Shown: piece by piece, positions 11,865 through 43,600 of the stretch | Layout of the letters: every line of letters begins with the position of its first letter | Position numbering within the stretch: position 1 is the first letter of the stretch | Assembly: GCA_024180945.1 (NCBI GenBank) | Contig: JAKSGN010000021.1 | Span: 806,001-870,000 of the forward strand | Direction of reading: 5' to 3' | Length of the DNA: 64,000 nt | Origin: Macrophomina tecta | Lineage: Eukaryota > Ascomycota > Dothideomycetes > Botryosphaeriales > Botryosphaeriaceae | Translations under genes and position numbers: made by a program | Notes under the pieces: generated by a model | What the model saw: the letters and a program-made list of their open reading frames with translations, nothing else | Told to the model about the DNA's origin: nothing | The model's database searches: none

Positions 11865-13027
11865 ATGTGGATCCTCAAGCGGCAAGCACCAACAATCTGG
11901 GCACGCATCCGTCGCATGAGTGGCTTCGCCAGGAGCTACACCCTGGTCCTCTTCATTGTTTTCGGCGGCGCCATGCTGGGCTTTACTCTGGCCAAATTCC
12001 AGTATCTGGACTACCGCGGCATCTACTGCAACCGAGAGAGGGCAGGGCGCACCATCAGCACGGCATCCCCTGGCGAATGCTACTGGCTGGACCGAGGCAG
12101 ATACAAGATCGGGATGCTCGTCCACCTGGCCGGCGCACTTCCGGCCGGCTTCCTTGCCGTCTTCCAATTCGTGCCCATCCTCCGCCACAAGGCCATGTCC
12201 ATCCACCGCATCAACGGCCATCTGACCTTGGCCCTGTTCCTAGTCAGCACTGCCGGAGTTTTTGTCTTTGTGCGCCACTCCTTTGGCGGGGAGCTTGCGA
12301 CACAGGCTGCGTCAGGAGTGCTGGCCTTCATGTCAGTGGGCGCCATGGCGCTCGCGTTCTACAATGTGAAGATGCTGCAGATCGACCAGCACCGGGCATG
12401 GATGCTGAGGGGCTGGTTCTACGTAGGCGTTCCCCGTCGCCTGCGCCATCCGCTCGACTCTGACTCGCACCAGGCAGCTTCCATCATAACCGTCCGCATC
12501 ATCGTGCCCATTACGGCGAGGATTGTGTCAGCGCAGGGGCGCTACTTCACCGCACGCCCCTGCGCCCAGCTGGACTACATGTTCAACTCGCAAATGGAAG
12601 AGACACTCCGGCATTACCCAGACTGTGTCAGGTTCTACGACGGCTCCAACGCTGAGCAACACGTCGTCGTCAACGCCAGGTTCGGCACCCATGTGGTGGA
12701 GGTGGGAGCAGCTCTTGGTCTCGGCTTCGGCATGGCCATGTGGCTCGCCCTTGCACTGCATGCAATCGGAGTGGAAGTATATGTGAGCATTACGCACCTC
12801 GCTCCCCCCTCCCCTTCCCCTCCCCTCCAGTCCGAGCCGTGGCGCTGACGTTGCGTCACTAGCTCCGTCTCACACCGCGAGAGGCCAGACGACTGCGGCT
12901 CGAGTCGTACAAGCGGCAGTTGGAGGCAGGCATGCGGAATCCCGGCAGCGCTGGGCTGACCGCTGAGAAGCTGGGTGACGCTGAGCCATGGGTACCCGTG
13001 CGCCTGCAGGCCGGCAACGCATCCTAA
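11865..13027 (+). CDS. DUF2306-like multi-pass membrane protein, two introns
   Basis: Exons are 11865-12422, 12474-12782 and 12863-13027. The first intron (51 nt, in frame, with a CTGAC branch site) is inferred because removing it joins MLRGWFY to AASIITVRI, the usual DUF2306 helix; reading through gives an unlike proline/arginine-rich insert. Hydrophobic helices are seen at the N-terminus (TLVLFIVFGGAMLGFTL), around LAGALPAGFLAVFQF, LALFLVSTAGVFVF, VLAFMSVGAMALAF and near the C-terminus. The histidine/arginine-bearing HRINGHL and DQHRAWMLR segments are typical of this family, whose function is not established. The protein is predicted to lie in a membrane. It sits beside the glycosyltransferase; cluster membership is not proven. 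Confidence 0.78.
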
Positions 13028-21620: not shown

Positions 21621-24600
21621 CTACGCCGCCGCGCTGGCCAGGCTGGGACTGAGGTGGGCGCTCTTGCCGGCGATGGTGGTGGCCAGGGCGGTCAGGCTGG
21701 GGCTCTGCATGATGTCGAAGATGGAGATCTCGGCGGCGGCCTTGAGGGCGAGGGCGTTGCGCAGCTCGACAGCTGTGAGCGAGTCGACGCCGAACTCGGC
21801 CATGGGCTTGCCCGGCGCGACCTCGTCCTCGGGCATCATGAAGATGTCCATCAGCTTGGCCGTGATCTCGACCGCGACGGCGGCGCTGGCATCGTCCAAT
21901 GTCTTGGCCCGCGCGATACGGCCGGCCAGATTGTCCGCCGCAGCGGAGCCGCTGGCGCCGTCCGCGGCACTACCGTCCGCGCCGCGAAACTTAGCGGGCC
22001 AGAAGCGCAGGTCGCGCGCGGCGGGACCGCCCTCGTCCCAGAAGGCGCTGGCGGGCGACGTGTTTATGCCGAAGACGAGCTGCGTGGCGTGTGGGTCGGT
22101 GACGGCGCACTCGACAGCCTTCAGCACGTCGCCCTCGCTGAGGATCATGTGCCCCTGCTTCTTGAGGTACGCGCTGGTGTCGTCGTGCTCCGAGACGTAG
22201 CCGACGTTCTTGACGGCGCCGATGTCGATGGACACGGCGGGCAAGCCTTGCGAAGTGCGGTGCCGCGCCAGCGCATCCTGGAACGAGCCGCCGGCGCCGT
22301 AGTTGCACTGCGACGCGATGCCGATGACGCCCGCCACAGAGGAGAGCATGATGAAGAAGTCGAGCGGGGCGCTGGCGAAGGCGGTGTGTAGGTTCCAGCT
22401 ACCCTGCACCTTGGGGCGCAGGCCGGTCTGGTAGTCGGCCAGGGACATTTGCTCGAGGATGGAGTCCTGGGAGAAGAGAAGGGTCAGCAAGACGGAAGAC
22501 TTTCCAAAAGGCGAGGGTTGAGAGACGAGCGTTGCGGCTGTGGTGGTTCACTCACCCGTAGGACCATGGCACCCTGGATCACGCCGCGGACCGGAGGCAT
22601 CTCTGCCGCGAAGCTCGCGATCGCATGCTTCACTGAGGCCTCGTCGGCAATGTCGCAGCTGATGGGCTTCACTTTGCAGCCCAGCTTCGCAATGTCGGCG
22701 AGGAGAGGAGCTGCCTTGTCCGCTGCGCTGGCGCTGCGGGAGAGAACGACGAGGTTCCTGGCACCGTGCTCGGCCAGCCAGTAGCAGATGCTCTGGCCAA
22801 TGCCACCGAAGCCACCGACGACGACGTAAGTCGCGTCAGGGCGCAGCTTTGCAACTGGTGCCTTGAGGATGGCCTGCGGAGATGGTCAGCGATAACGCAC
22901 ACGAGAGGATGTTGCCGCGGGACTCTCTGTCCCTCGCGATGACTTACCGGGACCATGCTGTCTGGCCTCACTGAGAGCACTACCTTGCCCTGGGTGTTGC
23001 TTGACGCCGCAGCGCGGAAGGCCTGGACGACGTCGCTGACGTCGTGCCTGGAGACGGGCACGCCTAGAATCTTCCTGGCCCGGATGAGGTCGAAGACGGC
23101 CGTCAGCGCGCGACTGACCTGCTGCCCCTTGCGCTCGACCAGCAGCGGCAGGTCCACGGCGGCGAAGGAGACACCGCGGGCGAACGCGCCCATGCTTAGC
23201 CGGCTGCTCTGCTCCAGATCGCGTTTGCCCAGCTCGACGAAGCGGCCCAGCGGCGCCACGCAGTCGAGGCTCTCCTGCAGCAGCGCGCCCTCGAGCGTGT
23301 TCAGCACGACATCAACGCCCCTGCCGCCGCTCGTCCGCGCCTTGAGCTCGTCGACGAAGCCATCGCCGCCGGTGAAGAAGATGCGGTCGGTGGGCACGCC
23401 GAGCACCTTGTGCACGAACGCCGTTTGCTCGAGGCCCACCACCGACACGAAGACGTCGGCGCCCGCGTGCTGCGCCAGACGGACGGCCGCCTGTCCAACG
23501 GCACTGCCTGCATCGTGCACCAGCACGCTCTCGCCGCCCGCCAGCCGCGCCACGTCGACGAGCGCGATCCACGCCGACGCGTACGCCACCGGCAGCGCCG
23601 CCGCGAGCTCGAAGCCCATGTCATCCGGGATGCGCACCGCGCTCGTCCACGGCGCCCGCACGCTGCTGGCGAAGCCCTCGCCCGGCAGCAGCGCCGCAAC
23701 CCGGTCGCCCGGCTTGAATCCCGTGAGCGTCGACGCGCGCGTCACGATGCCGGAGCACTCGAAACCAATGCGTCGGTTATCCTGCAGCGCGCCCGTGGCC
23801 ACGCTCACGTCGCGCGGCGAGATGCCGAAGGCGCGGGGGCTGATCTCGAGCTCGTCCGAGGCGAGCGAGGCGCTCGCGTCGTAGTCATTGGTCGGCGCGA
23901 AGACCAGAGAGTCGAGCTGGCCGGGGCTCTCGATGGTGAGGCGCAGGGGAGCGGCGTTGCTGCCGTCGTCGCTGTGCTTGACGAAGGGCCGGAGGCTGGT
24001 GCTGCTAGATTCCGAGGGCTTGGGGAACCACGTCTGCGCGCGATCGTGGTCCTTGAAGTAGCGCAGCACGTTGACAACACCGCCGCGCTCGGCGAACTCG
24101 TAGTCGCGCGGATCGCTGGCGGGCGAGGACAGGTCGGCAAAGAGCTCTGTGAAGACGGAGGCGATGGCGGCGGCCGAGGCGGGCGTCCAGGCGTCGCGCG
24201 AGGGGTCGAGATCGAGCGTTCCGATGCGCTTGCCGACGTACTCGAGGCGCAGGATGCGCGTGAAGCCCTGCGCCAGGCTGGCGAAGGGGTCGTTGCTGTC
24301 GACGGCCCCGCCGCGCGTGACCCAGAGCAGCCCCTTGGAGGTGGTGCACAGCGTGCGGATGGCCTCGAACTGGGCGCTGGTCGGGTCCTGGAGCATGGAG
24401 GCGGAGAGCTCGCCGACGAAGACGACCAGCTTGCCCTCGCAATCGAGCCTGTCGTACGGCTGGACGGTCGGAGCTGCGCCAGTGATGGCGGCCACGGCGC
24501 TGCTCAGCTCGTCGAGCCATTCCTGCGCTGGCGCAGGCGTTGGAGCGGCGATGACGACCTCCGGCGCGTACGTGCGGGCAGAACGCTCGGCGGACGAGAG

Positions 24601-27600
24601 GATGACGCTGTAGGAATACTGCGTCTCGCTCTCGCAGTCGTGCACCTCGACGTCCACGCCGGTGAAGCCGCTGCGCCTGAGCTCGCCGTCCCACTGGCTG
24701 ACGGAGAGCGAGGGGGCCAGCAGCCGGTGCTCTTCCTCGCCCTGCCAGTGGTCCGGCAGCAGGCCGAAGGCGAACTGGACGTCCAGCTGGTCCCGCGTCG
24801 GCTCCAGGAGGATGAGCTTTCCGCCGGGCTTCAGCAGCCTCCGCACGTTTGCGGCCGCATGCTCGATGGACGTCGTCTTGTGCAGGACCTGGGCGGCGAT
24901 GACCAGGTCGTACGACTCGGGCTCGAAGCCCTGCGCGCCCGGGTCGCGCTCGATGTCGAGCGTCTTGAACGACACGAGCTTCTTCCACGCGCCAAACTCG
25001 TCTTCGGCGGCCGCGAAGAAGGCGTCGGACACGTCGGTGAACTCGTACGAGCCGGCGAGCGGGTCGTCGGGGCTGCCAAGCGCGTTGAGCGCGTGCAGGG
25101 TGGTGGCGCCGCTGCCAGCGCCGACTTCGAGCACCTTGGCCCGGGGGTGCTGGTGGGCGAACTGGCGGACGAGCTCGGCCAGCTGCTTCCTGCTGCGCTC
25201 CAGCTGCAGCCCTTCGGCGTAGAAGCGGTACAGCAGCTGGCGCTCCTGCATCAGCTCGAGCGGAGACAGGACGCCGCGCAGGATGTCGGCCAGGTGCGGG
25301 CCGAGGGTGCACACGAGCTCGCCGTTGACGCTCCGGGCGGCGATCTTGGCCTTGAGCGTGGCCTTCTCCAGCGCTGGAACGGAGGCAGGGGCCTTCGCCG
25401 CCTGCAGCTTCATCCAGGCGTAGTAGCGCCGGAAGTGTCCGTCGAGCGCCTGCGCCTCGGCCGGGGTGATGGCCTCCAGCGCGTCCTGGAGGAACCAGGA
25501 GCAGACGAGCCGGACGTCGGCCAGCACCTGCGCCTCGACCGCGTCGGGCTCCTGCGCCAGCTGCTTCTTCAGCAGCGCGGGCGCGGTCAGCGTCAGGGCG
25601 GGCAGCCACCGGGCCGTGAGCAGCTTGTCGTTCTCGGTGGGATCGCCGCCGGCCAGCGCCGCGCCGATCGACTGGAAGTAGAAGTCGTCGATCTTGATCT
25701 TGACGTCCTGCGTGTTGGCCTCGTCCGTCACCGCCACAGCCGCCTTGAAGCCTTGCTTGTCGTTGTCCCACACGCGCGTGTGCGCGCTGAAGCGCGCGCC
25801 AGGCGTGCTGTCAATGTCGCTGGACACCCACAGCTCCTTGATCGTCCGCGGCACCTGCGCCGACGCCATGCTGGCCCCGACGTTTGGCAGCGCCGCGTAC
25901 ACGGCCTGGAAGACGTTGTCGAGCGTGATGGGGTGGATGACGTGCGGGTGCTCGTGCTCGTACGGCATCGTGGCCGCCGTGTCCGCCACCTCGAGCGTGG
26001 CGAGCGAGCCCAGCGGCCGCGCCCGCACGCTCTTCAGGTGCTGGAACATGGGGCCGTGCTGGATGCCCACGCGCCGCATCGAGTCGTACACGTCGGACGG
26101 GCTGATGCGCGAGCGGTAGTCCGACGCGTCGCGCACCACCGCGTGCTGGTCCTCTGCTGCGGGCACGCTGCGCTCGGCAGAAGGAGAAGGCGAAGCAGGA
26201 GCGACAACAGCGGGGCGCTCCGCTGGCTTGAGGACCGCCGGCGGCGTGTCTACGCGCTCGGGCGTTGTGGCCGGCGTGCCGTCACGGTTGTCGTCAGTCG
26301 TCTCCGACCCCGTGTCGTCAGGAGAGTCGTCGCCCCCGCCGGCACCGAGAGCGCCGTTCAGGCAGGCGACGAGGCTGGGGAAGTTGGTGACGCCCATGAG
26401 CTCGTCCTGGGGGAGCGTGCACTGGAAGGCCGTCTCGATCTCGCGCGCCATCTCCATGCCCATCAGCGAATCCACGCCAATGTCCGCCAGCTCAATGTCG
26501 TCCAGGATCTCCTCCACCTCGAGCCCCGAAATGTCGGCCAGGATCTCCTTGAGCTGCTTGATGATGTCGGAGGAGGACCGCGTGGCCGCCTTCGCAGCCG
26601 CGGGCGCGCGGTGTTGTTCGGCGGCAGCCGCAGGCGGAGCAGTGGCGAAGGAGGTGTCGGCCGCGGCGGACGAGGACGGCGACGTGAGCCGCGACAGCAG
26701 CTTACTCATCGAGGCCTTGGACACCTTGGCGTAGTTGATGCCCTCAACGACCTCGACCAGGGATGCCGTCTTGGCCTCGAAGACGAAAACGTCCGTCAGG
26801 AACGAGTTGCCGTCGGCCGCCCGCGAGTGCTGGGCAAAGACATGCCACTCGCCGTGCGACTGCGGCACGCTGGCGGCAAACTTGGGCGATCGCGCCCACC
26901 GCTTGATGCCGTTCGCGATGTACATGTCGCCGGGGTCGCGGTCGGTCATGCAATTGACCCAGATGCCGCCGACCTGGCAGAAGGTGTCGCCGAGGAAGGC
27001 GTCCAGCCAGGACTGGCCGGAGTGCGTCTTGGTGATGCGCCCGGCCGACTCGTGCCCTTTGCCCACCAGCTTCTGCAGCCCGTGGTACCGCTCGCCGTAG
27101 TCGACGATCTCGGAGAAGACGCGGTAGATGCTGCGGCTGCCCTGGATCATCTCGTCCGGGTCGTCGTCCTGCAGGAGCTGCATGCATCGAGCGTGGCTGA
27201 CTTGCCCCTCGTAGCGCGCGAACTCGTCGCTGCTGCTGCTGAGCGCAATCTCGCCCGTGACGTGCGTGGTGGGAGCGGCATTTGGGGGGGAAGAGCTCGT
27301 GCTGGTCATCTTCCAGGCCCAAGTCAGGCGGCCCGCGTCGAGCGCCTCGAGCTCCAACCAGACGCTCCTCGACGGGTCGACGCAGACGGGCACGAGGTTG
27401 GTGATATCGCGAACCTGTGGCAGCAGCGCCGAGGACGACTGAGGCTGCAGGCTGCGCAGGGCTTCGATGGCCAGGTCTATCTGCACCGTGGCCGGGCAGA
27501 TGGGCGCGGTCCCAGCAATCTTGTGACCCCCGACGATAGCCTCGTACTCAGGCGTTGAAGTGTTGACGCGGAAGCGGGCAAGGCGTTGCTCGTTGTCCTG

Positions 27601-30600
27601 GTAGCCGACGAAGGTGAAGAGCGCTGGCTGAGCAACGCCGGCTGCGGCTGTCGCCTTGGGCGGCTCCTTGAGCGCCAGCCAGTGCTTCTGCCTGTCGAAC
27701 TGGTACGGAGGGAGTAGCAGCAGCGCGTAGTCGTATGTCTGGAGCCTCGAATGGCCCCAGTATGCCACGTGCAGCCCGGCCCTCCAGAGAGTGGTGGTCG
27801 TGTCAATGAGCTTCTGGAGGCTCTGCGTGCCAGACACGTTCACTGCTTGGAAGTGGTGTGGTTCGGACGAGCCGAGCGCCTTGGACGCCATGAAAGTGAC
27901 CGTCGCATTCGAGCCTGCCTCCAACCAAATAGCGTTGGGATGCTCCTTTGCCAGGCGACTGACCGCATGGCTGAAGTAGACGGGGTTCCGCAGATGCTCG
28001 GCGAAGAAGTCGGCACAGAAGACGTCGCCGGCTCTGTTCTCCGTGGCGCGTTCCACCGGGATTGTAGGCTTGTTGAAGGTCAGGCCTTCGCCGACGGTGC
28101 GCAGCTGCGGCTTCAGCGCCTCGACGAGGGTCGAGTGGTACGCATTCGAGACATTAAGTCTCTTGAACTTCAGCGTTGGGAACTTGGCAGTGATGGTGGC
28201 GACGACAGCGTCGATGGTGGCCACAGAGCCGGCAATGGTATGGCTCGTGGGCCCGTTGAAGCACGCAATTGTCGCAGGCGTGTTAGATGCGGCGATGAGC
28301 TGGTTGACTTCGTCGGCGTCCGCCTCGACAGCCAGCATGGACCCCTTCTCCGGTCCCCAGGCGTCTCTGATGATGGTGGCGCGGGCAATGACGGCCTTCA
28401 TGGCGTCTTGCAGGCTGAGAACGCCGGAAATGCAGAGCGCAGTGAGTTCGCCAAAGCTGTGGCCGACGACCGCAGCGGGCTCGACACCGCAGTCAATCCA
28501 GCTCTTGGCTGTGGCATACTGCAGTGCAAAGAGCGCTGTTTGCAGGCTGACAATGTCCTCGATGGTCTCTTTCTGGAACACGTGAGGGTAGATGCTGCCG
28601 ACGCCGAGGGTTTGCGCCGTGGCATCGCACCTGTCCAGGTGCCTGCGCAGGACTGCGACGTTGTCATATACTTGGCGGTCGAGACCGACCGAGGTGGAGA
28701 TCTGGCCCCCAAAGCAGAGGATCAGAGGCCGGGGGGCTGGAAGGGAGACCGGAGATGCATCTCCGCTTTCGAGGGCCGTCAACTTGTTGTCCAGCTCTTC
28801 GATTGAGCTGGCAGTGAAGATGTGTGCCCTCTCAAGCGACCTGTTGGACTGACGGGCCACATTGAACGAGAGATCGGCAATGGAGGGGTTCTTCGTCTTG
28901 AGGAAGCGCCGGAGTCTCGTAGCGTAAGCACGGATGCTCCTATCATCAAGTCCACACAGCCAGAACGGATATTTGGGTCCTGCCGGGCTCTGGAAACCGC
29001 TGCCCAACCGGGGGGCCTGCGTGACGAGCATTGACGCATTGGAGCCCGAGGCACCGTAGTTGTTGATGAGCGCAGCCTTGAACTCGGCGTCCCACGGCTG
29101 CAAGGAGGTGGCAATATGCATCTTGTCTGCCGCCGTGGCGTTGATGGCAGGATTGATCGTGGAGAAGCTGGCCTGCGGTGGGATGCTACCTTCCTGCAGC
29201 ATGAGCAGAATCTTCGCCAGCGAAACAACGCCTGACGAGCCCTCCGTGTGTCCGACCAGACCCTTGACGGAGCCCAGCTGCAGCGGCTTTTCGCGCGAAG
29301 AGCCACCAAACACGCGACGGACGCTTTCGTACTCGGCAGGGTCTCCCACCGGGGTACCTGTACCGTGGGCTTCGACGACCGACACCTGACTGGGCTCGAG
29401 CCCGGACCGGCGCACCACTTTGCGGAAGAGATCGGACAGAGAGGGTGCGTTGGGCACGACGATGGGGGTGCAGCTCTGGTTCTGCTGCACGGCAGTGCTG
29501 GAGATGACGCCCAGGATCTGGTCGCCATCCGCAACGGCGGCCGACATCTTCTTCAAGAAGACGGCGCCAACAGCTTCACCTCGGCAGTACCCGTCGGCTA
29601 AGGCATCAAAAGGCTTGCACTGACCAGTCGGACTCAGGAACGAAGCACCCGCCAGGTTCTGGAAAAGCAGGGGGTGTGACATGGTGTTTGTGCCGCCGGC
29701 GAGGGCAGCAGTGCATTCGCCGCTTAGAATGGCGCGGCATGCTTGATGTACCGACACAGCGGATCCAGAACAGGCAGTGTCGATGGTCAAGCCCGGACCG
29801 GTCCAGCCAAAGTAATGGCTGATCTTGCCTGCAATGAAGCCGCGCAGATTGCCTGTGGCGGTGAAGGCATTCGCGGGATGGCAAGCTACGTTTTCAGCGT
29901 AGTCCGTTCCACAGACGCCGACATAGCAGCCAATGTTGCTATCGGTCCGTGCTGCCGCGTCGAAGTAGCCGGACTGCTCGACCGCCTGGTAGGCGACCTG
30001 CATCAGGAGTCGCTGCTGCGGATCCATGGATGCCGACTCTCGAGGCGTCTTCTTGAAGAACTTATGGTCGAAAGCATCGTGGTGGTTGAGGAAGTTTCCG
30101 TACCACGTCTTCTTCGTGTCGTTCTCGCGGAAGACGGAGTCGAAGCTGAACCGGTCACGCGGCACCGGCTTGTGCTGGGACTTGCCTTCTGCGAGAAGCT
30201 GCCAGAACTCGTCCGCGTCGTCGGCCCCGGCGACATGGATGGCCAGACCCACCACAGCAATCTCGTCGGGGGAGCGCTGCGGGAGTGCTACGTCCTCAAA
30301 GTGCAGCACTCGCGAACCGATCCCGCGGAGCAGGGAAGGCGGAACGCACTTCTCAGGTCCGAAGGAGAGCACCCGGGCATCTTTGGCGTCCAAGTGTGCT
30401 GACTTGACCTGAGCGAATGTCTTGTACCACTCCGCCGTGTCCAGGAGGATGGCCCTGATTGCTACCTCGTGTAAGCTTCCTTCGGCCACTACACCGTCTC
30501 CTGAATTGGACCGTAGAGGAGTCCGGAGTGCAGCCGCGTTGCCAAGGGAGAAGTCCGAATTGGAAGTACAAAAGTCCATTATCCGTTGGACAACGGTGGC

Positions 30601-31504
30601 GTGCTTTTGGCTGTGGAAACGTCCACCCAATCCGATTTCGGCAACAATGCACTTAGCAGACTTGAGCGTCTCTTCTACGGCAGGTGCTGATCTGCGAGCC
30701 GTGGTGATCGAGTAAGTGTTCTCATCGTAAACTACGGAAACGTAGGCCTATGGTTGTTAGCCGATTCGCCTTGTGAATGCATTGCCGACTGGGACTTGAC
30801 ACATTCATCAGAACGTAGGTGTTCACCAAACCGATGAAGGTTTACGCTCGGAGAAGTACTTCAAGATTCCATGGACATCGCATTAATGAACTTACTTCTG
30901 GAAATTGCTCCGAGATTTTCTTAACTTTCTCCGTAGCCTCAGGGGACCTTGCCGCTACTGAGAAAGTAGTGGACTCCCCGCTTTCGTCCTGAATATCTTG
31001 AGTGTCCACTGCAGCACCAATAAGCAGTGCGAGCCGCACAGCAGCTGCAGCATTCTTCTCGAATTCTCTCTTCGTGGCGCTGGAGGAGACAACAATGGCG
31101 CTGAGAAGGCCCATGCAGAACCCAACGGCTTCCGATGCTGGAAGCGCCTCTGGTTCGCGGAGGCTGGCGTAGGTGGTATACTGTGTCAACTGCGCTATGA
31201 TAACAAGTGGGCTCAACAGAACGTTGGGCAGGCGAGGGGTGCCTAGAGTGCCGGCCTTGAACCAGTTGCTAAGCTCGGCCAAGTGAGCGGCACCGGGGAC
31301 AGCCGCGATCTCGGTAATTTCTTTGCGGATAAGTTCCCATTGCTCTGGTAGCTCATCGATGGCGCGTAAGGCCCAGGAATGATCATCCGAGCTCAGCACA
31401 GAAGACGCGAGGCTTCGGAACGCCGGTTGGTCAAAAGAGAGGGGCTGTGACCCGAAGAGGAGAACGGTCGCGGCGTTAGGAGGGATAGAGAGTCTGCCGA
31501 CCAT
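21621..31504 (-). CDS. PKS1: chimeric NR/HR polyketide synthase, SAT-KS-MAT-PT-ACP-(half DH)-cMeT-ER-KR-ACP, 3190 aa
   Basis: Exons are 31504-30896, 30747-22948, 22873-22556 and 22466-21621; all introns are phase 0. Non-reducing part: SAT 1-about 340 (GFCMG, Cys130), KS about 364-780 (DTACSGS Cys529, His664, His703), MAT about 870-1190 (GHSFGE Ser967), PT about 1245-1550 (His1278, Asp1457), ACP about 1592-1670 (GVDSLM Ser1630). After an acidic/Pro-rich linker (1672-1740) comes a highly reducing part. It consists of only the C-terminal hotdog half of a DH (catalytic Asp1813 in HPITLD), cMeT (GAGSGATT near 2079-2086), structural psi-KR, ER (about 2470-2800), KR (GGFGGIG near 2823-2829, Tyr2965) and a second ACP (GVDSL Ser3138). 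There is no TE or R domain. Exon 2 alone is one uninterrupted frame running from the SAT through the ER, so the fusion is not a splicing guess. The His-bearing half of the DH is missing and lies in PKS2. It shares a 498-bp promoter region with PKS2. The domain calls are sure; the activity of the chimera is unknown. Confidence 0.93.
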
Positions 31505-32002
31505 GGTCGCAAGTAGTGTATGAGACTATTTGCAGAACGAATGCTGTTGAGTCTTGAGCTGTCGGCCGGGGGAGATGGGACGAAAGAACGTTATAGCTTG
31601 TTGAACAGCCGCTTGACGAGAAGGACGACAGTATTCCAGCGAGAGAATGCTTCCACTAATAACTCGAGGGAGTCGTCCGCCGCACGAGCATTACCATCAA
31701 CGGCAATTTCCTTCGGATACTCCGGTACGGACTATCTTGTTGGTTGTCCTGCTCGGAGTTATTTCTCGGACTCTAGCCAGCCGGCAGTTGCGCATTGATT
31801 GCCCGGCGGCCCATCGGACAGGCGGCCTCACCATTACTCCCAGAGCACCAAAGACGCCTTTGGGACTGCGAAAGACCATGAATAGATAAAAAGAAGGAGA
31901 GTATTGCGAGTGAAGCTGGTTGCTCTTATCTCCTCGTCATTCTTTGTCCCCTCCGGCAACCTCTGCTACCGCCCAACTCAACGTTACCACCGAGCTCTTA
32001 CC
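31505..32002. promoter_or_regulatory. Bidirectional promoter of the chimeric PKS pair
   Basis: 498 bp separate the two divergent PKS starts. Near the middle, 31714-31724 reads CGG-N5-CCG, an everted pair of CGG half-sites of the kind bound by Zn2Cys6 dimers. On the minus strand it begins with the recurrent CGGAGTA heptamer. A further CGG follows two bases later. One CGGAGTT near-match lies near 31755. Under the inversion model this promoter segment was inverted together with both 5' halves. Confidence 0.55.
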
Positions 32003-35000
32003 ATGGGAGAGCAACCGAGTATTCCGATCGCCATTGTTGGCATGAGCTGCAGGTTTGCTGGCGGAGCCACAGACCCCGAAAAGCTTTGGCAACTGTGCGA
32101 GGAAGGTAGAACAGGCTGGAGTGAGATTCCATCCGACAGATTCAATATCGATGGACATTACCATCCCAGGCCAGACCACTTGAACACGGTTCGTTGAGAC
32201 TTCCTGTTTGATTAATAATGTGCTGACGCTTCAAAGACGAACGTGAAGGGCGCATGCTTCTTAGAGGAAGATATAGCCGCGTTCGACGCAACATTCTTCG
32301 GACTGTCAGCAGAGACTGCAGCAGTGAGTTGATCAAGCCCGGACAACGAAATTGCTGCTTCTAACAAGGACTAAGTGCCTGGATCCGCAATTCCGGCTCA
32401 TGCTCGAATCTACGTATGAGGCTTTTGAGAATGCCGGTCTCAGCTTGCAAGAGGTGAACGGCTCTAACACTTCCGTCTACGCCGGTTCATTCTTCAAGGA
32501 CTACCACGATGCAGGCCTCAGGGATGTAACTACTCTGCCACGTTCGTTTCTGATCGGTGTCGGTTCTGCCATGGCTTCCAACCGCCTATCACATTACTTT
32601 GACCTGCGCGGTGCCTCCATGTCCATCGACACGGGCTGCTCAACAACAATGACCGCACTGCACCAAGCGTGCAACGATTTGCGCAACCACGAGTCCAGCA
32701 TGTCCGTCGTCTCGGGCGGTAACCTGATCCTCAACCCTGACATGTTCATCACCATGTCTTCCGTCCAGCTGATCTCCAAGGACGGCAAGAGTTTCACCTT
32801 CGATAGCCGCGCAAACGGCTACGGCCGCGGCGAGGGAGTGGCGACCGTCGTGCTCAAGCGGCTGGATGACGCTCTCCGGGACGGGGACCCCATTCAAGCC
32901 ATCATCAAGGAGAGTGCCCTCAACCAAGACGGCAAGACAGAAACCATCACCACGCCCAGCCAAGAGGCTCAGATAGAGCTGATCAAGCGCGTGTACAAGA
33001 AAGCTGGCCTAGACCCGAAGGACACAGGTTACTTCGAGGCGCACGGCACAGGTACGCCAACGGGAGACCCGCTGGAGGTGGGCGCGATTGCGGCCGCTTT
33101 TAAGGACTCGAGGCCGAGGGACCGACCGCTGGCCATCGGCTCAGTCAAGCCCAACATTGGGCATACCGAGTGCGCCTCTGGCTTAGCAAGCATCATCAAG
33201 GTTGTGAAGGCGCTGGAGAAGGGCAAGATCCCGCCATCAGCGAATTTGGAGAAGCTCAACCCCCGGCTCAAGCTCGAGGAATGGAATTTGAAGGTGCCGC
33301 GCGTGGCCGAGCCGTGGCCAGAGGCAGCAGTCCGCCGCGCATCCGTCAACAACTTTGGCTATGGCGGCGCCAACTCGCACATCATCCTCGAGCACTATCA
33401 GCCAACTTCCGCAGACTCGGACGGCTCACCTACGACTCTGTCCTCCAAGGTGCTCATGCTCAGCGCAAAGGACGAGACTGCGGCTACGACTATGGTGGAA
33501 AATCTGCGCGACTATCTGCTTTCCGCCGAAATCGAGGACGAGACATCCTTCATGCGCGATTTAGCCTACACTCTTGGCCAGCGCCGAACAACCACCTTCC
33601 CCTGGGTCGCCGCCACGACGGCTTCGTCTGTGTCGGAGATTATCCGTGCCATCGACGGCAACCGCATGAAGCCGCGTCGTACTCAGAGCCCGCTGAGGCT
33701 CGGCTTCGTCTTCACCGGCCAGGGCGCGCAATGGTGGGCTATGGGCCGCGAGCTCATCGCTGCGTACCCCGTGTTCCGCGATACGATCGTCGAAGCGGAC
33801 GGCTACCTGCGGGAGTTCGGCGCCAAGTACAGCCTTCTCGACGAGTTGCACCGCGACGAGCAGACGACGCGGGTGAACGAGGCCACGCTGGGCCAGCCCG
33901 TGTGTGTCGCGGTGCAGGTTGCGTTGGTGCGCCTGCTGGAGAGCTGGGGGGTGGTGCCGAGCGCCGTGACCAGCCATTCCAGCGGCGAGATCGCCAGTGC
34001 TTTCGCCGCTGGTGTTCTGAGCCTGAGGAACGCCATGGGCGTTGTGTACGCGCGTGGCACGCTGGCCGCCGATGTGGCCAAGTACTCGACACTGGGGCGT
34101 GGCGGCATGATTGCCGTCGGCCTCGGCGTCGAGGCGGCGGAGAAGTACGTCGAGCGCGTGTCTGCCGGCAAGGTAGTCGTGGCGTGCAGGAACAGCCCTG
34201 CCAGCGTCACCGTCTCCGGAGACATTGCTGGCATCGAAGAGATCGAGAAGTTGTTGAAGGAGGACAATGTCTTCGCCAGGCAGCTGAAGGTGCCTACGGG
34301 CTACCACTCGCACCACATGCAGCCCATCGCCGAGCCGTACCTGAAGTGGCTACAAGCCAACATCACTCCTGAGCCGAGCATGAAGGAAGGCCTCATCTAC
34401 TCCTCGCCTACCACCGGCGGGCGTATGACGGACGCCCAAGAGATTGGCGTGCCGGAGCACTGGGTACAGAGTCTCACTAACCCTGTGCTCTTCACCGAGG
34501 CCTTCACCAACATGTGTTTCGCCGGCCCGGGTGAGCCCTGCGACGTCGATTACGTTATTGAGATTGGCGCACACGCCGCGCTTTCGGGCCCGATTCAGGA
34601 CATCAAATCGCTCGACGCTTTCCAAGGAACCAAGATCGGTTACAGCAGCTGCCTTTTGCGCAAGAAGGATGCCGTGGAAACCGCACAGGCTCTGGCGTGC
34701 GATCTCATCCACAACAGGTACCAGCTGAACATGGGCAATGTCAACCTGACCCCGCGCGGTAATGTGCTGACCGGTTTGCCCAAGTATCCCTGGAATCACC
34801 AGAACCGCCACTGGTACGAGCCCAGGATGAACAGGGCGCACCGAATGCTGTCCGAGGCGCCTCATGACCTGCTCGGAAGCCCTCTCACGGGCGGCAACCG
34901 CATCAATCCCTCGTGGAGACATGTGATCAAGACCTCCTCGCTGCCCTGGATCCGAGACCACGGACTCCAAGGCACCGTCGTCTATCCAGGGGCTGGCTTC

Positions 35001-37760
35001 ATCTGCATGGCCATCGAGGGCCTGGTGCAGGCCGAAAAGTCCAGCGGCGGGAAGCCCATCAGCGGCTACCGCCTGCGCGACATCGACATTCTACAGGCGC
35101 TAGTCATCCCTGAGGGAGACGACGGCATAGAGGTGCAGCTGTCCATGCGTCCATGCGGCGACAAGGCCATCTATGCCAAGGGCTGGAAGGAGTTCCAGAT
35201 CTTCTCCGTCACACACGACGACAAGTGGAGCGAGCATTGCCGCGGCCTGATCCGCCTTGAGCGTGATGATGGCCGGCATAAACAGCGGAAGGGCTTAGCT
35301 GCTGCGAAGCCGATCCAGTCCAAGCCCTTGTCCACCGAGCTGGAGCTGCCCCAGTCCGTGATCCTCGAGGCGTGGGGCGAGTCGAAGCTCCTCACCGACA
35401 AGCTGGTCCAGCAGTATGGCGCCGATGGCTACTTGGAGACCATTCTCCCCAAGCAAGATCGGCTTTGCGTTGCCCTGACTGTTGAAGCGTTCAAGGAGCT
35501 AGGATGCGATCTGGCCGCCGCACAGCCCGGCGATACACTTGAGCACGTTCCCCATATCCCGACCCAGGCCAGATTTGCCAAGTACCTGTACTCCATCCTC
35601 GAATCTGCGCACCTCGTTGACGTGAAAGACGGCGTCATCACCCGCACGGACGCGCCTCTGCTCGTGCGGCCTAGCGACGTCTTGTTGCAGGACCTCATCA
35701 GAAGCCATCCCGAACACTCTCGGCCGAACGAGCTAGCGCATCTGACCGGCACCCACCTGGCAGGCATTCTGACCGGCAAAGAGGACGGCATCAAGCTCAT
35801 CTTTGGCACAGAGAGGGGCCGAGATCTGGTGTCCGGCGTGTACGCTGACTTCCCTCTCAACAAAGTGGGCTACCACCAGATGGGCGACTTCCTCACGAGG
35901 ATACTGTCCAAGGTGCCGAGGCATCCCGGCCAAGGCCCGCTCAAGATCCTGGAGATGGGTGCCGGCACTGGCGCGACGACGAAGAAGCTGGTGCCGCTCC
36001 TGGCGGAGCTGGGGGTGCCCGTTGAGTTCACCTTCACAGACCTCGCGCCGTCCTTCGTTGCTGCGGCGCGGAAGGAGTTCAAGAAGTATCCCTTCATGAA
36101 GTTCCGCGCACACGACATCGAGAAAGCACCAGCCGCCGACTTGATGCATTCCCAGCACATTGTTATTGCCAGCAACGCCGTCCACGCGACGCGCAGTCTG
36201 CCCGACTCGACGGCGAACATCCGCAAAATGCTTCGGCCCGACGGCCTGCTGTTGCTGCTCGAGCTGACTGGGCCTATGTACTGGTGTGACATCATCTTCG
36301 GCGTCTTCGAGGGCTGGTGGCTGTTTGAAGACGGACGCACCCGGGCCATTGCACCCCCGGAACGATGGGAGAAGGACCTCCACCGCGTCGGCTACGGGCA
36401 CGTCGACTGGAGCGATGGCCACTTGCCGGAGATCCAGTGCGAACGCGTCATCATCGCCACGGCTTCTGGCGAGCAGTTTGAACGACTTCCGCTTCCCCCG
36501 GCGCCTCAGCAAGCACCGCCGGATTATAACCACGACGCCCGCCGTGCGGCCACAGATCAGTACGTGCGCAAATACACAGCAGACTTCTCCCTCCCCGCTT
36601 CGTCTAACGATGCCGTAGATCCTGCTAGTCCAACCGTCTTGATCACGGGGGCGACAGGCAGCCTTGGAGCCCACATGGCAGCCCATTACGCGGGCTTGCC
36701 CACTGTCCGGTCGGTCATCTGCCTCAACCGCCGCAGCGGCTCTGACCCCAAGCAGCGCCAGCTACGATCCATGGAAGCGAAGGGGATCAAACTGGACGAG
36801 CGAGCCCTGTCGAAACTCCTTGTCTACGAGACAGACACCGCCAAGCCCTGCCTCGGGCTTCCCCTCGAACACTACGCCGCCCTCCTCCCCTCCCTCACGC
36901 ACATCATTCACAACGCTTGGCCCATGAACGCAAAGCGCCCGCTGAAGGGTTTCGAGCGCCAGTTCCAAGTGATGCGCAACCTGCTCGACCTCGCCGCCGA
37001 CACGTCCGCCCACCGCACCGCCTCGGCCAAAGTCACCTTCCAGCTCATCTCCTCCATTGCCACCGTCGGCCACCACCCCTTCCACGCCGGCACTCCGCAC
37101 ATTCCTGAGGAGCGCATGACCATCGAGTCGGTCCTGCCGAACGGCTACGGCGACGCCAAGTTCGTCTGCGAGCTCATGCTTGACGCGACGCTGCACACGC
37201 ACCCTTCGCGCTTCCGTGCCATGGCCGTGCGCCTGGGCCAGGTCGCAGGCTCGACGGCCTCGGGCTACTGGAACACGATGGAGCACCTTTCGTTCCTGCT
37301 ACGGTCGAGCCAGACACTGGGCGCGCTGCCCGCGCTCACCGGCCCGCTCAGCTGGACGCCCGTCGACGCCGTCGCCGCCGCCGCTGCCGACCTCGCCCTG
37401 CTGCCGCCCGCCCCCCACCCCGTCTATCACATCGACAACCCCGTCCGCCAGCCCTGGGAGCACATGCTGCCCGTGCTGGCCGCGCAGCTGGGCATCGACC
37501 CCGCCGCCGGCATCGTGCCCTTCCGCGAGTGGATTGCGCGCGTGCGCGCCCACCCCGGCCCTGTCGAGTGGGCCAATCCCGCCGCCAAACTGGTCGATTT
37601 CCTGGAGGCCGACTTCGAGCGCATGTCGTGTGGCGGAGTGCTGCTCGAGACGGTGAGGAGCAGGGAGCATTCGCCGACGATGAGGGCCGTCGGCCCGGTG
37701 AGCGAGGAGGTGGTCGCGCGGTATATCAGCGCGTGGAGGGAGGTGGGCTTCTTGGACTAG
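32003..37760 (+). CDS. PKS2: chimeric HR/NR polyketide synthase, KS-AT-(half DH)-cMeT-R, 1885 aa, no ACP
   Basis: Exons are 32003-32188, 32237-32323 and 32376-37760, all phase 0. Highly reducing part: KS about 8-430 (DTGCSTT Cys179, His314, His354), AT about 530-850 (SHSSGE Ser626; the first Gly of the usual GHSSGE is Ser). The N-terminal DH hotdog is about 920-1055, with catalytic His953 in RDHGLQG and its partner strand VVYPGAGF. At about 1055-1080 (genomic 35265-35340) the sequence switches to a non-reducing-type C-MeT. That has the helical lead-in ELPQSVILEAWGESKLLTD, GAGTGATT near 1286-1293 and SNAVHATRSL. It is followed by a terminal thioester reductase (GATGSLGA near 1516-1523, Tyr in NGYGDAK), which releases aldehydes in group VII NR-PKSs. 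No GxDS phosphopantetheine site, ER or KR exists, so the protein cannot hold a growing chain on its own ACP. An upstream in-frame ATG at 31904 is less likely. It is the reciprocal partner of PKS1. Confidence 0.92.
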
Positions 37761-38679: not shown

Positions 38680-40065
38680 CTATATCGTTCCCACTTTCGG
38701 CCCCTCCTCGATCATCGAGGCGCACTGCCGCCACTCGGGATCGTTCCTCAGCCCGTCCAACTCCACTTCCGGAAGACAGAGCAGCAGCAGCAAGTCGCCG
38801 CTGGCCTCGGGCGGGTAGATGTAGAACACGCCGGCCAGGGGAGCCAGCCGCGGCCGCCTGCCCAGGTCGGGCTTGCCCAGCGGGCCGAAGTCGAAGCCGT
38901 TCACCTTGGCGTTCATCATGGACGAGTGCCCGACGTCGAGCACGGGGTTCAGGCCGCCGGCGTACATCAGCTGCTGCTTGTCGCGCACGCCGGCGACGAA
39001 CGAGGCGTAGCTGCGCGCCGAGAACTCGGTGTTGACCTCGTCGAGGTCGCGGCGCAGCCAGCTGGCGATGGTCGACAGCGGCAGGTCGACCAGCTCCTGC
39101 AGGCTCAGCCGCGTCGCCGCCTGGTACACCATCTGCCCAAGGTAGCCCGGCGACACGTTGACCGCCGGCCGGATGTCGATCGCGCGCGAGAACTTGGACA
39201 CGCCCGTGGGCGGCAGCCCGGTCTTGATGCGCACGGCCGCCAGCCGCTTCCAGAAAAGGGCGCACAGCGCGTCGTTCGCCGAGATGAAGGGGACGCTGGG
39301 GTCGAAGCCCTCGGGCTGCTCGGCAAGCTTCTTGATTCCCGGGATCGCCTCCTTGTGGAAGCGAAAGTACGTCCACTTCGGCGTTGCACGTGGCTGCAAC
39401 ACCGGCGGGGCGGGGTTGGGCTTGAGGAGATAGCTGTGGTCGCGCATAGGCTCGTACGGGTCGAGCAGGGGGATGACTTCCCTGGGATCTTGATTCGCCG
39501 CCTTGATGATATCTTCGGGGAACGGTTCGCCGCGCAGCGCGTTTGAGAGGAGGGCGATGAGAGTGAAAGCACCAGTGCCGTCGACCATGTTATGTTGATT
39601 GCTGAATGTGAGCAGGAAGCCGCCTTTGACGAATGTGATTTGGAACACAAATGGCGGTGCGGGCCCGATCTTGGCTGTGTCGTATCCGAGAGGAAATCCT
39701 GGGAACGGGCAGATGACTTCTCCGTCGAGCATTGAGAAAGGGGCGTCTGCTGCTAGCATCTCTTGGTACGTGGGAAGGATGTTCGAGGCGTCCTTTACCT
39801 TCAGTAGGTTATGAGGAGGGGTGTTTTCGGGCCATGGCGCCATCTTGAGAACCCCAGAGCTCCCTGCTTCTCCGGGTACATGAATAACTCGGCCTGTCAG
39901 CCACGGTATCTTTGCCAGGATCTTCGCGGTGGCCTGCTCCATTGCACTGACGACCTTCTCCTTTGTGAGGCCATCGCGCATGGGAAATAGAGAAACGCCG
40001 TGATTGTACGTCTTCAATTGGGGGAACTGTCCGAGGACATCCTCGTTTCGTGCGTAGTCCGCCAT
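38680..40065 (-). CDS. BAHD-like / trichothecene 3-O-acetyltransferase-like acyltransferase, 461 aa
   Basis: This single-exon acyl-CoA-dependent acyltransferase belongs to the fungal transferase family (PF02458-like). The catalytic HxxxD motif is HNMVDG near residues 155-160, in a strand-loop FLLTFSNQHNMVDGTG. The C-terminal structural motif is a reduced DFGPLG instead of DFGWG. Met at 40065 was chosen because homology-like sequence starts there; the open frame extends 78 codons upstream to 40299 without family features. Such enzymes add an acyl chain to a hydroxyl of a polyketide, as in azaphilone clusters. It diverges from the FMO-MFS gene with a 543-bp promoter, consistent with co-regulation. 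Substrate and acyl donor are unknown. Confidence 0.87.
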   Translation of the reverse strand: MADYARNEDVLGQFPQLKTYNHGVSLFPMRDGLTKEKVVSAMEQATAKILAKIPWLTGRVIHVPGEAGSSGVLKMAPWPENTPPHNLLKVKDASNILPTYQEMLAADAPFSMLDGEVICPFPGFPLGYDTAKIGPAPPFVFQITFVKGGFLLTFSNQHNMVDGTGAFTLIALLSNALRGEPFPEDIIKAANQDPREVIPLLDPYEPMRDHSYLLKPNPAPPVLQPRATPKWTYFRFHKEAIPGIKKLAEQPEGFDPSVPFISANDALCALFWKRLAAVRIKTGLPPTGVSKFSRAIDIRPAVNVSPGYLGQMVYQAATRLSLQELVDLPLSTIASWLRRDLDEVNTEFSARSYASFVAGVRDKQQLMYAGGLNPVLDVGHSSMMNAKVNGFDFGPLGKPDLGRRPRLAPLAGVFYIYPPEASGDLLLLLCLPEVELDGLRNDPEWRQCASMIEEGPKVGTI

Positions 40066-40608
40066 GACGCAAAGGTGGTCTTTTAGCGAGAAGAAATTCT
40101 GAATCTTGAAGATACGGAGAGATGTTACACAGTTGAAGAGAACATTCCTTATACCAAGCCGTTGGTTTCTTCTACACGTGCACTTTCTACACAGAGCCTT
40201 CACTTTCCGAGAGTTGAAGCCGAGATGGCGAGGCGTTACTCCTGCAGAAAGTCCGAAGTCCGCCGTAGTATCTAATTTGCGGACCAATACCAACTCCAAC
40301 CCCTGGGGAAAACGTTGGGGCTAAGACATCGCCGAAATCGACGCTACCTCGGAATTATCACTCGTTCCGATATATTGGCCTTAGTCCTTGCCCCCGTGGT
40401 CTGATCGTCATACCGTCAAGCAAAGGTTTTCGGCGGCTTCAAATAGGAAACAAAGCGGACAGACAGGTCGCCACGCCCGCCGTCGCCTCTTTGAACGGCC
40501 TGCCCACATACTCCCAAGCAGCCCCTGAAGACGGGTAAGCTCATACGGACACCCTTTTCTGCATCAAAGGCTCGGATTGAGCGCATAGCACCGACGGCAA
40601 CGACAGAC
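40066..40608. promoter_or_regulatory. Divergent promoter, acyltransferase / FMO-MFS
   Basis: 543 bp between divergent starts. No exact CGGAGTA is present; GTTACTCC, half of the palindrome seen at 61693-61711, occurs near 40235-40242. No gene is seen. Confidence 0.4.
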
Positions 40609-43600
40609 ATGTCATCGGACGAGGCTTCTTTCCATGTGGCCATTGTTGGCGGCGGTATCACCGGCTTGTCGCTAGCCCTTGGTCTCTTGACACGCGGCAT
40701 CAAGTTCACCATCTATGAGCGAGCGCGCGGCTTCGGTGAAATTGGTGCGGGTATCGGCTTCACCCCAAATGCAGAGCGTGCCATGCAACTACTGGACCCT
40801 CGCATCCATGCAGCGTTTCGCAAAGTGGGCGCCAAGAACACAGAGGACTACTTCAACTATGTGGATGGATATCACTACGATCCGAGCAACCCGGAACATG
40901 AGGAAACCATCCTCAGGCTGTACCTTGGAGAGCGGGGCTTCGAAGGATGCCGTCGGTCGGATTTTCTTGACGAACTCATTCAGCACATCCCAGAAGAAAA
41001 TGTTCAGTTCAGGAAGGAGCTTGTCGAAGTGACGGAGAGGTCCGGCGACGGAAGACTTCTTCTCAGCTTCCAAGACAGCACCAGTGCCGAGGCTGATGTT
41101 GGTGAGAGCGTCTGCACTGCCTAAGAGAAGCAACAAACGGCCAGCTAATCAGCATGCAGTGATCGGCTGCGACGGTATCAAATCAAAACTGAGGCGCATC
41201 ATGATAGGAGATTCGCATCCGGCCGCCCACCCATCCTACAGTCACAAGTACGCAATCCGAGGGATTGTTCCCATGGAGAAGGCTAGAGCTGCTCTTGGGC
41301 TGTGGCGAACCTCCAATCGTGTGATGCACTGCGGCCCCCGAGCGCACGCATTGACTTTCCCTGTCGCCGCTGATACGCTGCTGAATGTTGTTGCGTTCGT
41401 TACTGATCCGAACGAATGGCAGACGGCAGACGGGAAAATGACGGCGCCAGCTGCCAAGAGCGAAGCCACCCAGGGCTTCGCCCAGTTCAGTCCCGTTGTG
41501 AGGGCCATTATGGATCTACTGCCAGAGCAGCTCGACAAGTGGGCCGTTTTTGACACGTACGACAACCGCGTCCCGACGTACGTGTCTAGCCGCCTGTGCC
41601 TCGCCGGCGATGCCGCTCATGCAGCGTCGCCGCATCATGGCGCCGGCGCGGGCTGCGGGCTCGAGGACTGCCTTGCGCTTGCAGTCTTGCTGGAAGCAGT
41701 CGCCCGGCAAAGCGGGACGGACAGGAGCGAGAGCTTGCGGAACGCACTGCTGGTGTACAACGATGTTCGGTATCAACGATCCCAATGGCTGGTTGAGACG
41801 AGCCGCGACGTGGGCGACGTCTACGAGTTCATGCACCCTGAGAGCGGATCGGACCACAAGCTGATAGCACAGGAGATCGAATCCCGCTCACACGCGATAT
41901 GGCGCTACGATGTTGATGGGATGGTCTCGGATGCCTTGAACAAGTTTCAACAGAAAACGGTCGATGGATCCATCAGCTCAGAGCCGTCCGAGAAGCAGAG
42001 TTCTGAGGGCGGCTCGAACAAGGGATCGGTGGATGGGGCAGCCGTCCTCGTTCCCGAAAAGGAATCCTCAGCGACGGAAGTGGGCCTCGAAGCCGCAAGG
42101 CCGCCAGAGGACAAAAGATATCTTTCAGGCTTCAAGCTAGCCGCTGTGATCGGGTCGTTCTGCATGGTGTGCTTTTTGATGATGCTGGACATATCCATTC
42201 TCTCTACTGTAAGTTAGCTAGTCAGAAAAATTGCACATGTTCTCGCGCGTCGAAATGTCGCTGACGAACTTCAACCAGGCGATTCCGTACATCACCGATG
42301 AATTCAATTCTCTCTTAGACGTGGGCTGGTATGCCAGCGCATACACACTTGTCACGTAAGATGCCCAAACCGGTGATTGCGTTGCATCTTTGACAGAACA
42401 TCAGTGCTTCGCTGCAGCCTCTGAGCGGCAAGATGTATGCCCGTCTCAACTCGAAGGTATTCACGTTCCAAATTGCTGTCTTCTGGCAAGCCGTGCTGAC
42501 TTCCACAGATCCTTTTCCTGGGCTTCTTTGCGTTCTTCGAGATTGGCTCCGCTATATGCGGCGCAGCCCAGTCTTCCTTGATGCTAATCCTGGGTCGCGC
42601 GGTTGCTGGCCTGGGTGGAGCTGGCCTGATGAACGGCGGATTCACTATCCTCAATTCCTGTGTTGAACCGAACCAACGACCGAGCATGCTGGGGTTGTTA
42701 ATGGGTTGTAAGTAAAGAGGTGCCATGGCGCAGAAGACTTTGCTGAATCATGGGCTCCAGTTGGAAATCTGGGTGGCGCGATTGCCCCAATCATCGGAGG
42801 AGTTATCACAGAGTATGCTTCATGGCGCTGGTGTAAGTGCAACGCTCTTGCAAAGCTTTCTGTTCTAATGAACGCAGGTTTCTACATAAACCTTCCCATC
42901 GGGGCTGCTCTAGCCCCGTTCCTTGTGTGGATCCACATTCCCGACCACATCCCAAAGCCGCATTGGAAGACGGTCGTCCGCAATCCGCTTTCCGAGTTCG
43001 ATCTGATCGGCTTTGGCTTCTTCGCACCTGCGGCGGTTATGCTCTTCCTCGCACTCGAATCTGGGGGCAACAGGCACCCGTGGAGTAGCGCAGAGGTAAT
43101 CGGGCTCTTTTGCGGAGCGGGCGCCATGTTCATCATCTTCGTCGTTTGGAACAAGCGGCTGGGCGACGCGGCTATGATTCCCCTTTCCATGCTGCGCCAG
43201 ACGATTGTATGGTCCAGCTGCGTGACCATACTCATGCTATCAGGGACGGTGTTCGTCGCTGCCTACTATCTGCCCTTGTACTTCCAGGGCGTCCGCGCCG
43301 ACTCGCCGTTCGAGAGCGGCGTCAACTTTCTCCCCACCATCCTCACGCAAGTTGTATTCACTCTCCTGTGCGGAGGCTTGGGTAAGACCCTCACTCTCTA
43401 CTCATGATATTTGAAGTCCCGGCCTTGACTCGCTTCTAGTTCAGAAGATTGGGTATTATCTGCCATTCATCCTCGTAGGCGGCGTCCTGAATTCCATCGG
43501 CTCAGGGCTCCTAACCACGATGTCTCCGTCCACCACGATTGCCAAATTGGCCGGGTATCAGATTTTGTCCGGCAGCGGGCGTGGACTCTCGCTTCCGATT

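Follow-up and report, generated by a model that had tools for sequence, protein, structure and literature searches.

Reciprocal chimeras of highly reducing and non-reducing polyketide synthases in Macrophomina tecta: probable products of a single inversion

In the described partnerships between highly reducing (HR) and non-reducing (NR) fungal polyketide synthases (PKSs), each of the two synthases is whole. Such collaborating pairs include AzaA/AzaB, AfoE/AfoG and SorB/SorA, as set out in passages of PMC6763771, and the same passages state that by 2019 none of the known HR-PKSs contained SAT and PT domains. Here, we analysed a 64,000-nucleotide stretch of the Macrophomina tecta genome (contig JAKSGN010000021.1, positions 806,001 to 870,000; referred to as the window, in which all positions are counted). 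It carries two divergent genes, PKS1 and PKS2, each of which joins part of an HR-PKS to part of an NR-PKS. With moderate confidence, we propose that these genes are reciprocal HR/NR chimeras that arose through a single inversion of ~9.1 kb, with one cut in each gene of a divergent pair, in an ancestor common to the gene copies of Macrophomina and Diplodia, and that their proteins still form one split machine.

Domain order of PKS1 and PKS2 and position of the joins

Domains were called with Pfam on the translated frames, and catalytic motifs were located with search strings based on known signatures. PKS1 has the order SAT-KS-MAT-PT-ACP followed by DHc-cMeT-ER-KR-ACP, where PT was assigned by alignment to NR-PKSs. 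PKS2 has the order KS-AT-DHn followed by an NR-type cMeT-R, and no carrier domain was found in it by Pfam. DHn and DHc are the two hotdogs of an HR dehydratase (DH). The first exon border of PKS1 is the same as in P0003 of Diplodia intermedia, and the NR-type cMeT part of PKS2 matches in sequence the structure 5mpt, from the citrinin PKS. The parts of both genes are as follows.

21621..31504, minus: PKS1 chimeric gene, 3190 amino acids (aa); exons 31504-30896, 30747-22948, 22873-22556 and 22466-21621, with GT..AG borders
30896..31504, minus: exon with the NR-type SAT domain (PF16073, E 3.9e-15)
29164..30264, minus: NR-type KS (Pfam), motif DTACSGS at 29761-29781
27868..28713, minus: MAT domain (Pfam), GHSFGE at 28447-28464
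26698..27540, minus: PT domain, limits approximate (alignment to NR-PKSs), GHKIAGTAPICP at 27493-27528
26359..26556, minus: NR-type ACP (Pfam), GVDSLMGME at 26452-26478
26136..26242, minus: left join, NR 5′ half to HR 3′ half, within a single exon (tblastn)
25660..26139, minus: DHc, C-terminal hotdog of the HR dehydratase (PF14765 and fold), Asp motif TLDNVFQ at 25906-25926
24814..25131, minus: core of the HR-type cMeT (Pfam), SAM motif EVGAGSG at 25108-25128
22975..23856, minus: ER domain (PF08240/PF13602)
22209..22826, minus: KR domain, spanning an intron, 5′ limit approximate (second half PF08659, first half by motif)
21675..21866, minus: HR-type ACP (PF00550/PF23297)
31505..32002: intergenic stretch of 498 bp between both start codons, presumed shared promoter, within the inverted segment
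32003..37760, plus: PKS2 chimeric gene, with the last of its three exons from 32376; the MS6 model has 1885 aa
32376..33251, plus: HR-type KS, main part (Pfam), DTGCSTT at 32628-32648
33705..34589, plus: AT domain (Pfam), HSSGE at 33975-33989
34863..35204, plus: DHn, N-terminal hotdog of the HR dehydratase (PF21089 and fold), His motif RDHGLQGTVVYP at 34953-34988
35276..35319, plus: right join, HR 5′ half to NR 3′ half, within a single exon (tblastn)
35379..36251, plus: NR-type cMeT (HTH_51 and methyltransferase; Pfam), EMGAGTG at 35952-35972
36642..37382, plus: reductive release domain R (PF07993), TGATGSLG and YGDAK motifs

The seven domains of the NR set SAT-KS-MAT-PT-ACP-cMeT-R, which we take to be that of group VII, are not on one chain: the first five are on PKS1 and the last two on PKS2. 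An NR-PKS has no reducing domains, whereas PKS1 contains ER and KR. An HR-PKS carries KS-AT and all reducing domains on a single chain and has neither SAT nor PT, whereas here KS-AT-DHn are on PKS2 and DHc-cMeT-ER-KR-ACP on PKS1, next to a SAT (Pfam) and a PT (alignment). By domain order, PKS1 and PKS2 belong neither to the HR nor to the NR family, and between them they hold the complete domain sets of one HR-PKS and one NR-PKS.

The joins were located by tblastn with conventional synthases from Neofusicoccum. Residues 91-1058 of the N. parvum HR-PKS P0124 aligned to 32376-35276 on the plus strand and residues 1066-2119 to 26136-22945 on the minus strand, while residues 205-1721 of the N. ribis NR-PKS P0004 aligned to 30753-26242 on the minus strand and residues 1730-2540 to 35319-37754 on the plus strand. 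Both parents are thus split in two, their halves lying on opposite strands of the window, with 7-8 parental residues unaligned between the halves. The cuts lie in linkers, after the ACP in the NR parent and between the two DH hotdogs in the HR parent, and each join is within one uninterrupted exon. Translation, Pfam and tblastn confirmed the domain orders, gene limits and switch points of the original prediction, whose junctions at 26133-26343 and 35265-35340 were narrowed to 26136-26242 and 35276-35319. That both products are open also held true. To call this unexpected was an overstatement, however, because after a clean single inversion the two joins share their phase and are in frame together or out of frame together, which by reasoning makes the chance of staying in frame about 1 in 3, not 1 in 9.

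Origin and distribution of the chimeras

Of 1828 PKS1 relatives and 3341 PKS2 relatives, the best 120 in each case were examined and their domains read by eye. Within these, SAT occurred together with PF14765 and KR only in P0003 (3042 aa) of D. intermedia, a member of another genus, and PF21089 occurred together with HTH_51 only in P0123 of M. phaseolina MS6. The latter is a PKS2 chimera with 99% identity to that of the window (HR half 99.4%, NR half 99.6%). A full-length MS6 PKS1 was not among the matches listed, so MS6 was not seen with both joins. P0003, annotated merely as 'Type I Iterative PKS', has the same join as PKS1, from the NR ACP linker to the C-terminal half of the DH; it is the sister of PKS1 in both trees and shares 76% identity with its NR half and 69, 80 and 88% with three HR pieces. 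It differs from PKS1 in that its reducing cMeT is partly missing and that no PKS2 partner was found. By eye, two stretches of about 110 and 35 residues are absent from the HR cMeT region of the annotated protein, either because the DNA was truly deleted or because the annotation bridges a lesion. According to the relevant part of PMC12217926, D. intermedia has a single public assembly, of the Illumina/SPAdes kind.

Searches of the M. tecta genome itself (54.1 Mb, 37 contigs; scores given for the best candidates only) returned 65-80% identity to the Neofusicoccum parents only at the split halves, with the other matches listed at 23-53%, and no unbroken parental copy was found among them. The halves of each parent therefore lie on opposite strands of one locus in a genome where no intact parent was found, which is the pattern expected of an inversion chimera. 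P0004 and P0124 are 64-80% identical to the matching halves of the chimeras but, unlike these, are conventional uninterrupted proteins.

To place the halves separately among conventional NR and HR proteins, four trees of 13 rows each were built (NR5′, NR3′, HR5′ and HR3′). The PKS1 and PKS2 halves were found in the same place in all of them, except for a weak HR5′ branch that put Macrophomina beside Polyplosphaeria (support 56/44). Neofusicoccum branched outermost, followed by Macrophomina, with Diplodia where present, beside Pleosporales that have conventional proteins. Support for the clade of Macrophomina and Diplodia was 100/100 (NR5′) and 100/99 (HR3′), and constraining Macrophomina with Neofusicoccum to the exclusion of Diplodia was rejected by the approximately unbiased (AU) test (p 1.5e-8 and 4.6e-84). 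When Macrophomina was constrained together with Diplodia or MS6 to group with Neofusicoccum, p was 0.054 (NR5′), 0.0056 (HR3′), 0.068 (NR3′) and 0.013 (HR5′). The deeper placement of Neofusicoccum is therefore suggested, but not settled; as an observation in its own right, its position in all four half-trees (two not significant) hints at cluster transfer or old paralogy. The four trees also speak against a derivation of both PKS1 halves from an established chimeric clade unrelated to PKS2. Together with the reciprocal mapping of the parents and the two other genomes, their concordance supports the single inversion that had been suggested from the sequence of the window.

In such an inversion the shared promoter would be flipped along with both 5′ halves, so that the two genes presumably remained divergent and co-regulated. 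An ancestral linked pair fits with eight other genomes among the matches listed (Melanomma, Polyplosphaeria, Pleopsidium, Xylogone, Hyphodiscus, Kuettlingeria, Pyrenophora seminiperda and Neodidymelliopsis), in each of which an NR and an HR relative are given the same length of longest contig; in three of these genomes the two also have consecutive locus tags. Inverted repeats were considered as a trigger and dropped: the longest exact words shared by the 800-bp break regions were 11 bp in direct and 10 bp in inverted orientation, and none had both ends inside the narrowed break intervals.

GC content at third codon positions (GC3) was compared between 300-codon blocks on either side of the joins. 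Across the PKS1 join it rose from 0.90 to 0.96, a small step (p 0.005), and across the PKS2 join from 0.78 to 0.79 (p 0.84), whereas larger steps of 0.18 and 0.11 would be expected at the parental joins. As a control, 15 other PKS frames gave 232 steps between overlapping blocks, of which 3.0% and 12.5% were equally large; steps of this size are thus no great rarity. As an age marker, GC3 lends mild support to an old event. A separate NR-PKS frame, L026 (G000:C3:28001-38000), changes in third-position GC from 0.59 to 0.97 along the gene, as steeply as PKS1. Diplodia and Macrophomina belong to different clades of the family, according to a portion of PMC13188853, and part of PMC9961722 dates the crown of the family to 44, 44, 61 and 70 million years. 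Since a gene tree may differ from the species tree, we claim no age for the inversion.

A second candidate inversion was rejected. On contig C7, an R-domain match (330843-332099, plus) lies near a minus-strand NR-PKS, but Pfam identified the plus-strand gene (L010 1670-4099) as a nonribosomal peptide synthetase-like AMP-binding/carrier/reductase gene, divergent from the NR-PKS frame (L009 3475-9636, minus), in which no R domain was found by Pfam.

A predicted two-protein synthase and its alternatives

The catalytic His and Asp of the HR dehydratase lie on different proteins, the His in PKS2 (motif 34953-34988) and the Asp in PKS1 (motif 25906-25926). Neither residue varies in an alignment of 23 rows, the chimeras among them. 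When DHn and DHc were folded separately, each gave one hotdog-like model (mean pLDDT, a model confidence score, 73.3 and 75.6), and these models matched whole PKS DH domains as well as FabZ chains (1u1z for DHn, 3az8 for DHc). FabZ-type enzymes are assembled from single hotdogs. Each DH half of the chimeras resembles one FabZ chain, which makes a two-chain dehydratase plausible. Unlike in FabZ, the two halves differ in sequence and sit on separate megasynthases that would have to assemble.

From the split dehydratase, the hotdog models and the missing carrier domain of PKS2 we infer that PKS1 and PKS2 may act as a complex in trans, in which every activity of the old pair would still be present once, redistributed between the two proteins. 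Because PKS2 is without a carrier protein, its KS-AT must use the HR-type ACP at the PKS1 terminus, on which chain extension would take place. KR and ER would be supplied by PKS1, and a heterotypic dehydratase site would be rebuilt in trans from the His hotdog of PKS2 and the Asp hotdog of PKS1. This DHn-DHc contact would also dock the two proteins, restoring both parental activities. SAT would then hand the reduced chain over to the NR-type KS-MAT-PT-ACP of PKS1. Methylation and release as an aldehyde would follow on the cMeT-R tail of PKS2, and the oxygenase and acyltransferase encoded nearby would convert the aldehyde into an azaphilone-like compound. Tentatively, we suggest that the inversion created an obligate two-protein megasynthase in which the hotdog contact is both active site and docking joint, and that PKS1 is the first synthase with a SAT-PT front and a reducing wing, kept in two genera.

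To judge whether the genes look functional, we counted how many alignment columns that are constant in conventional rows (Hyphodiscus excluded from the count) are broken in the chimeras. In the window, 0-12% were broken per catalytic domain, mostly in the conventional range. For PKS1, with P0003 in brackets, the NR part gave KS 4/197 (4/197), MAT with linker 5/133 (6/133), the pre-ACP linker 0/3 and ACP 1/31 (0/31), and the HR part gave cMeT 6/68, ER 4/68 (7/68), KR 2/31 and 1/73 (1/31 and 0/73) and ACP 0/30 (0/30). The HTH_51 part yielded zero countable columns. Furthermore, the paths to the chimera and to the conventional Polyplosphaeria pair, counted from the node that unites them, were 0.31 and 0.32 (NR5′), 0.27 and 0.34 (NR3′), 0.18 and 0.17 (HR5′), and 0.35 and 0.41 (HR3′). 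Of the PKS1 path, 63% (NR5′) and 68% (HR3′) falls after the split from Diplodia and hence after the join. Because most invariant residues are kept and the branches are about as long as those of the Polyplosphaeria pair, the genes look functional. We read the Macrophomina chimeras as maintained in function with some drift, and D. intermedia as having lost one methylation step; the swapped enzymes probably still work.

Several observations weigh against this view. PT is broken at 9/110 columns in the window and 11/110 in D. intermedia, compared with 1-5 of 111-115 in conventional rows; the structural psi-KR at 4/41 in both, compared with 0-3 of 41-44; and DHc at 5/42 in the window (2/42 in D. 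intermedia), compared with 0-2 of 42-44 except for Polyplosphaeria at 7/49, which places it above four of the five conventional rows shown. A 13-column linker, broken at 3/13, also exceeds the conventional rows shown, while the remaining domains are within or near the conventional range. In D. intermedia, 24/68 columns of the HR cMeT (18 gaps) and 8/13 of the preceding linker (7 gaps) are broken. From the node shared with Neofusicoccum, the chimera path is two to four times that of Neofusicoccum (about 0.34 and 0.17 for NR5′, 0.35 and 0.17 for NR3′, 0.26 and 0.07 for HR5′, 0.43 and 0.15 for HR3′). A D. intermedia PKS2 was not among the matches listed, where the annotated proteins were of 995-3167 aa or 495-1575 aa; unannotated, shorter or longer copies remain possible, but PKS2 may be dispensable there, and if it is truly absent PKS1 would persist alone and the obligate pair would fail in that species. 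Confidence in the DH models is middling, the PKS1 join still shows its GC3 step, the un-inverted divergent order of the ancestor is deduced from the present orientation, and with Neofusicoccum outside the group of Macrophomina, Diplodia and Pleosporales inheritance may not have been simply vertical.

These points bear on two competing accounts of the proteins. It is conceivable, though unlikely, that PKS1 works alone as a novel synthase with an NR front and a reducing tail, PKS2 being a by-product that is lost or being lost. The apparent lack of PKS2 in D. intermedia would fit, as would the two ACPs, one KS and one AT that Pfam finds on PKS1. However, Macrophomina PKS2 is open through 1810 codons in the window and is equally constrained (broken columns: KS 4/143, AT 3/138, DHn 1/45, NR cMeT 2/88, R 2/131), and PKS1 has preserved the Asp half of a dehydratase of which it has only that half. 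Less likely still, the two chimeras are remnants of an azaphilone-type cluster, already dead or decaying, and are open through chance in-frame breaks. The one-in-three odds of such breaks, the degenerate reducing cMeT of D. intermedia and the few PKS1 parts that exceed most conventional rows would agree with decay, whereas about 5000 codons with zero unexplained stops, 69-88% identity across genera and paths similar to those of the Polyplosphaeria pair argue against it.

The origin of the joins can be questioned as well. Reciprocal gene conversion, template switching or stepwise fusion and loss might have swapped the halves in place of one inversion. In favour of these routes, the joins together comprise 139 residues compared with 105 in the two Neofusicoccum linkers; the excess of some 34 points to unclean breaks or later growth of the linkers, and the original break ends are not preserved. 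On the other hand, several steps would be needed, while divergent genes with the promoter between them, exchanged 5′ halves and no duplicate halves found are the outcome of a one-step inversion, and we regard the other routes as very improbable. An assembly or strand-switch artefact is hardly credible: nothing was found in its favour, separate assemblies also contain the joins, that of PKS2 in MS6 and that of PKS1 in D. intermedia, and the longest exact inverted word common to both break regions has 10 bp.

Neighbouring genes and comparison with known systems

The chimeras adjoin genes for an acyltransferase, a flavin (FAD) monooxygenase, a transporter, a serine hydrolase and a transcription factor, three of which have the following coordinates.

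38680..40320, minus: acyltransferase (Pfam families TRI-like_N / Transferase), probable cluster gene
40495..42217, plus: FAD-dependent monooxygenase (FAD_binding_3), two open stretches, probable cluster gene
42712..43407, plus: MFS/TRI12-like transporter, partial

By analogy with azaphilone-type clusters, where a FAD monooxygenase and an acyltransferase are likewise found nearby, these neighbours suggest a product of that type. A second HR-PKS gene, in several frames, lies about 10 kb from the chimeras (47880-55334, minus), with KS, AT, DH and ER pieces by Pfam and a KR by tblastn; its condensing region shares about 35% identity with that of PKS2, and it has an alcohol dehydrogenase, a P450 and a serine hydrolase close by. 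Elsewhere in the window, a UDP-glycosyltransferase-like gene (9518-10984, minus) makes a sugar-decorated product possible, and 11604-12848 (plus) encodes a DUF2306 membrane protein. A DUF2306 protein has been linked to the terminal epoxidation in pramanicin biosynthesis of M. phaseolina, as stated in part of PMC12895699.

We found no precedent for a reciprocal HR/NR chimera or a split or inverted PKS pair in the literature searched, which included no bioRxiv and few subscription-journal papers, and the portions of PMC6763771, PMC5576322 and PMC11026467 consulted describe no such chimeric pair. Chimeric PKSs from exchanged domains are reviewed in PMC11026467, but the swaps are engineered, and a natural reciprocal NR/HR exchange is not described in the part of that review at hand. 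PKS1 and PKS2 would be a natural counterpart of the recombination tried by engineers, in which HR and NR synthases traded halves and one hybrid, PKS1, is open in two genera. They indicate linkers in which a cut is tolerated, one following the NR ACP and one separating the two DH hotdogs. The split also allows a direct test of function over two proteins, both for a fungal type I dehydratase and for an entire HR synthase. They also suggest a route of cluster diversification, in which one inversion swaps the halves of a divergent pair with a shared promoter while co-regulation is kept. With the HR-PKS/NR-PKS pairs of azaphilone, asperfuranone and sorbicillinoid biosynthesis, PKS1 and PKS2 share the parental domain types and the expected hand-over through SAT and, as in azaphilone-type clusters, oxygenase and acyltransferase genes adjoin them. 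Unlike the synthases of these known pairs, PKS1 and PKS2 are each half HR and half NR.

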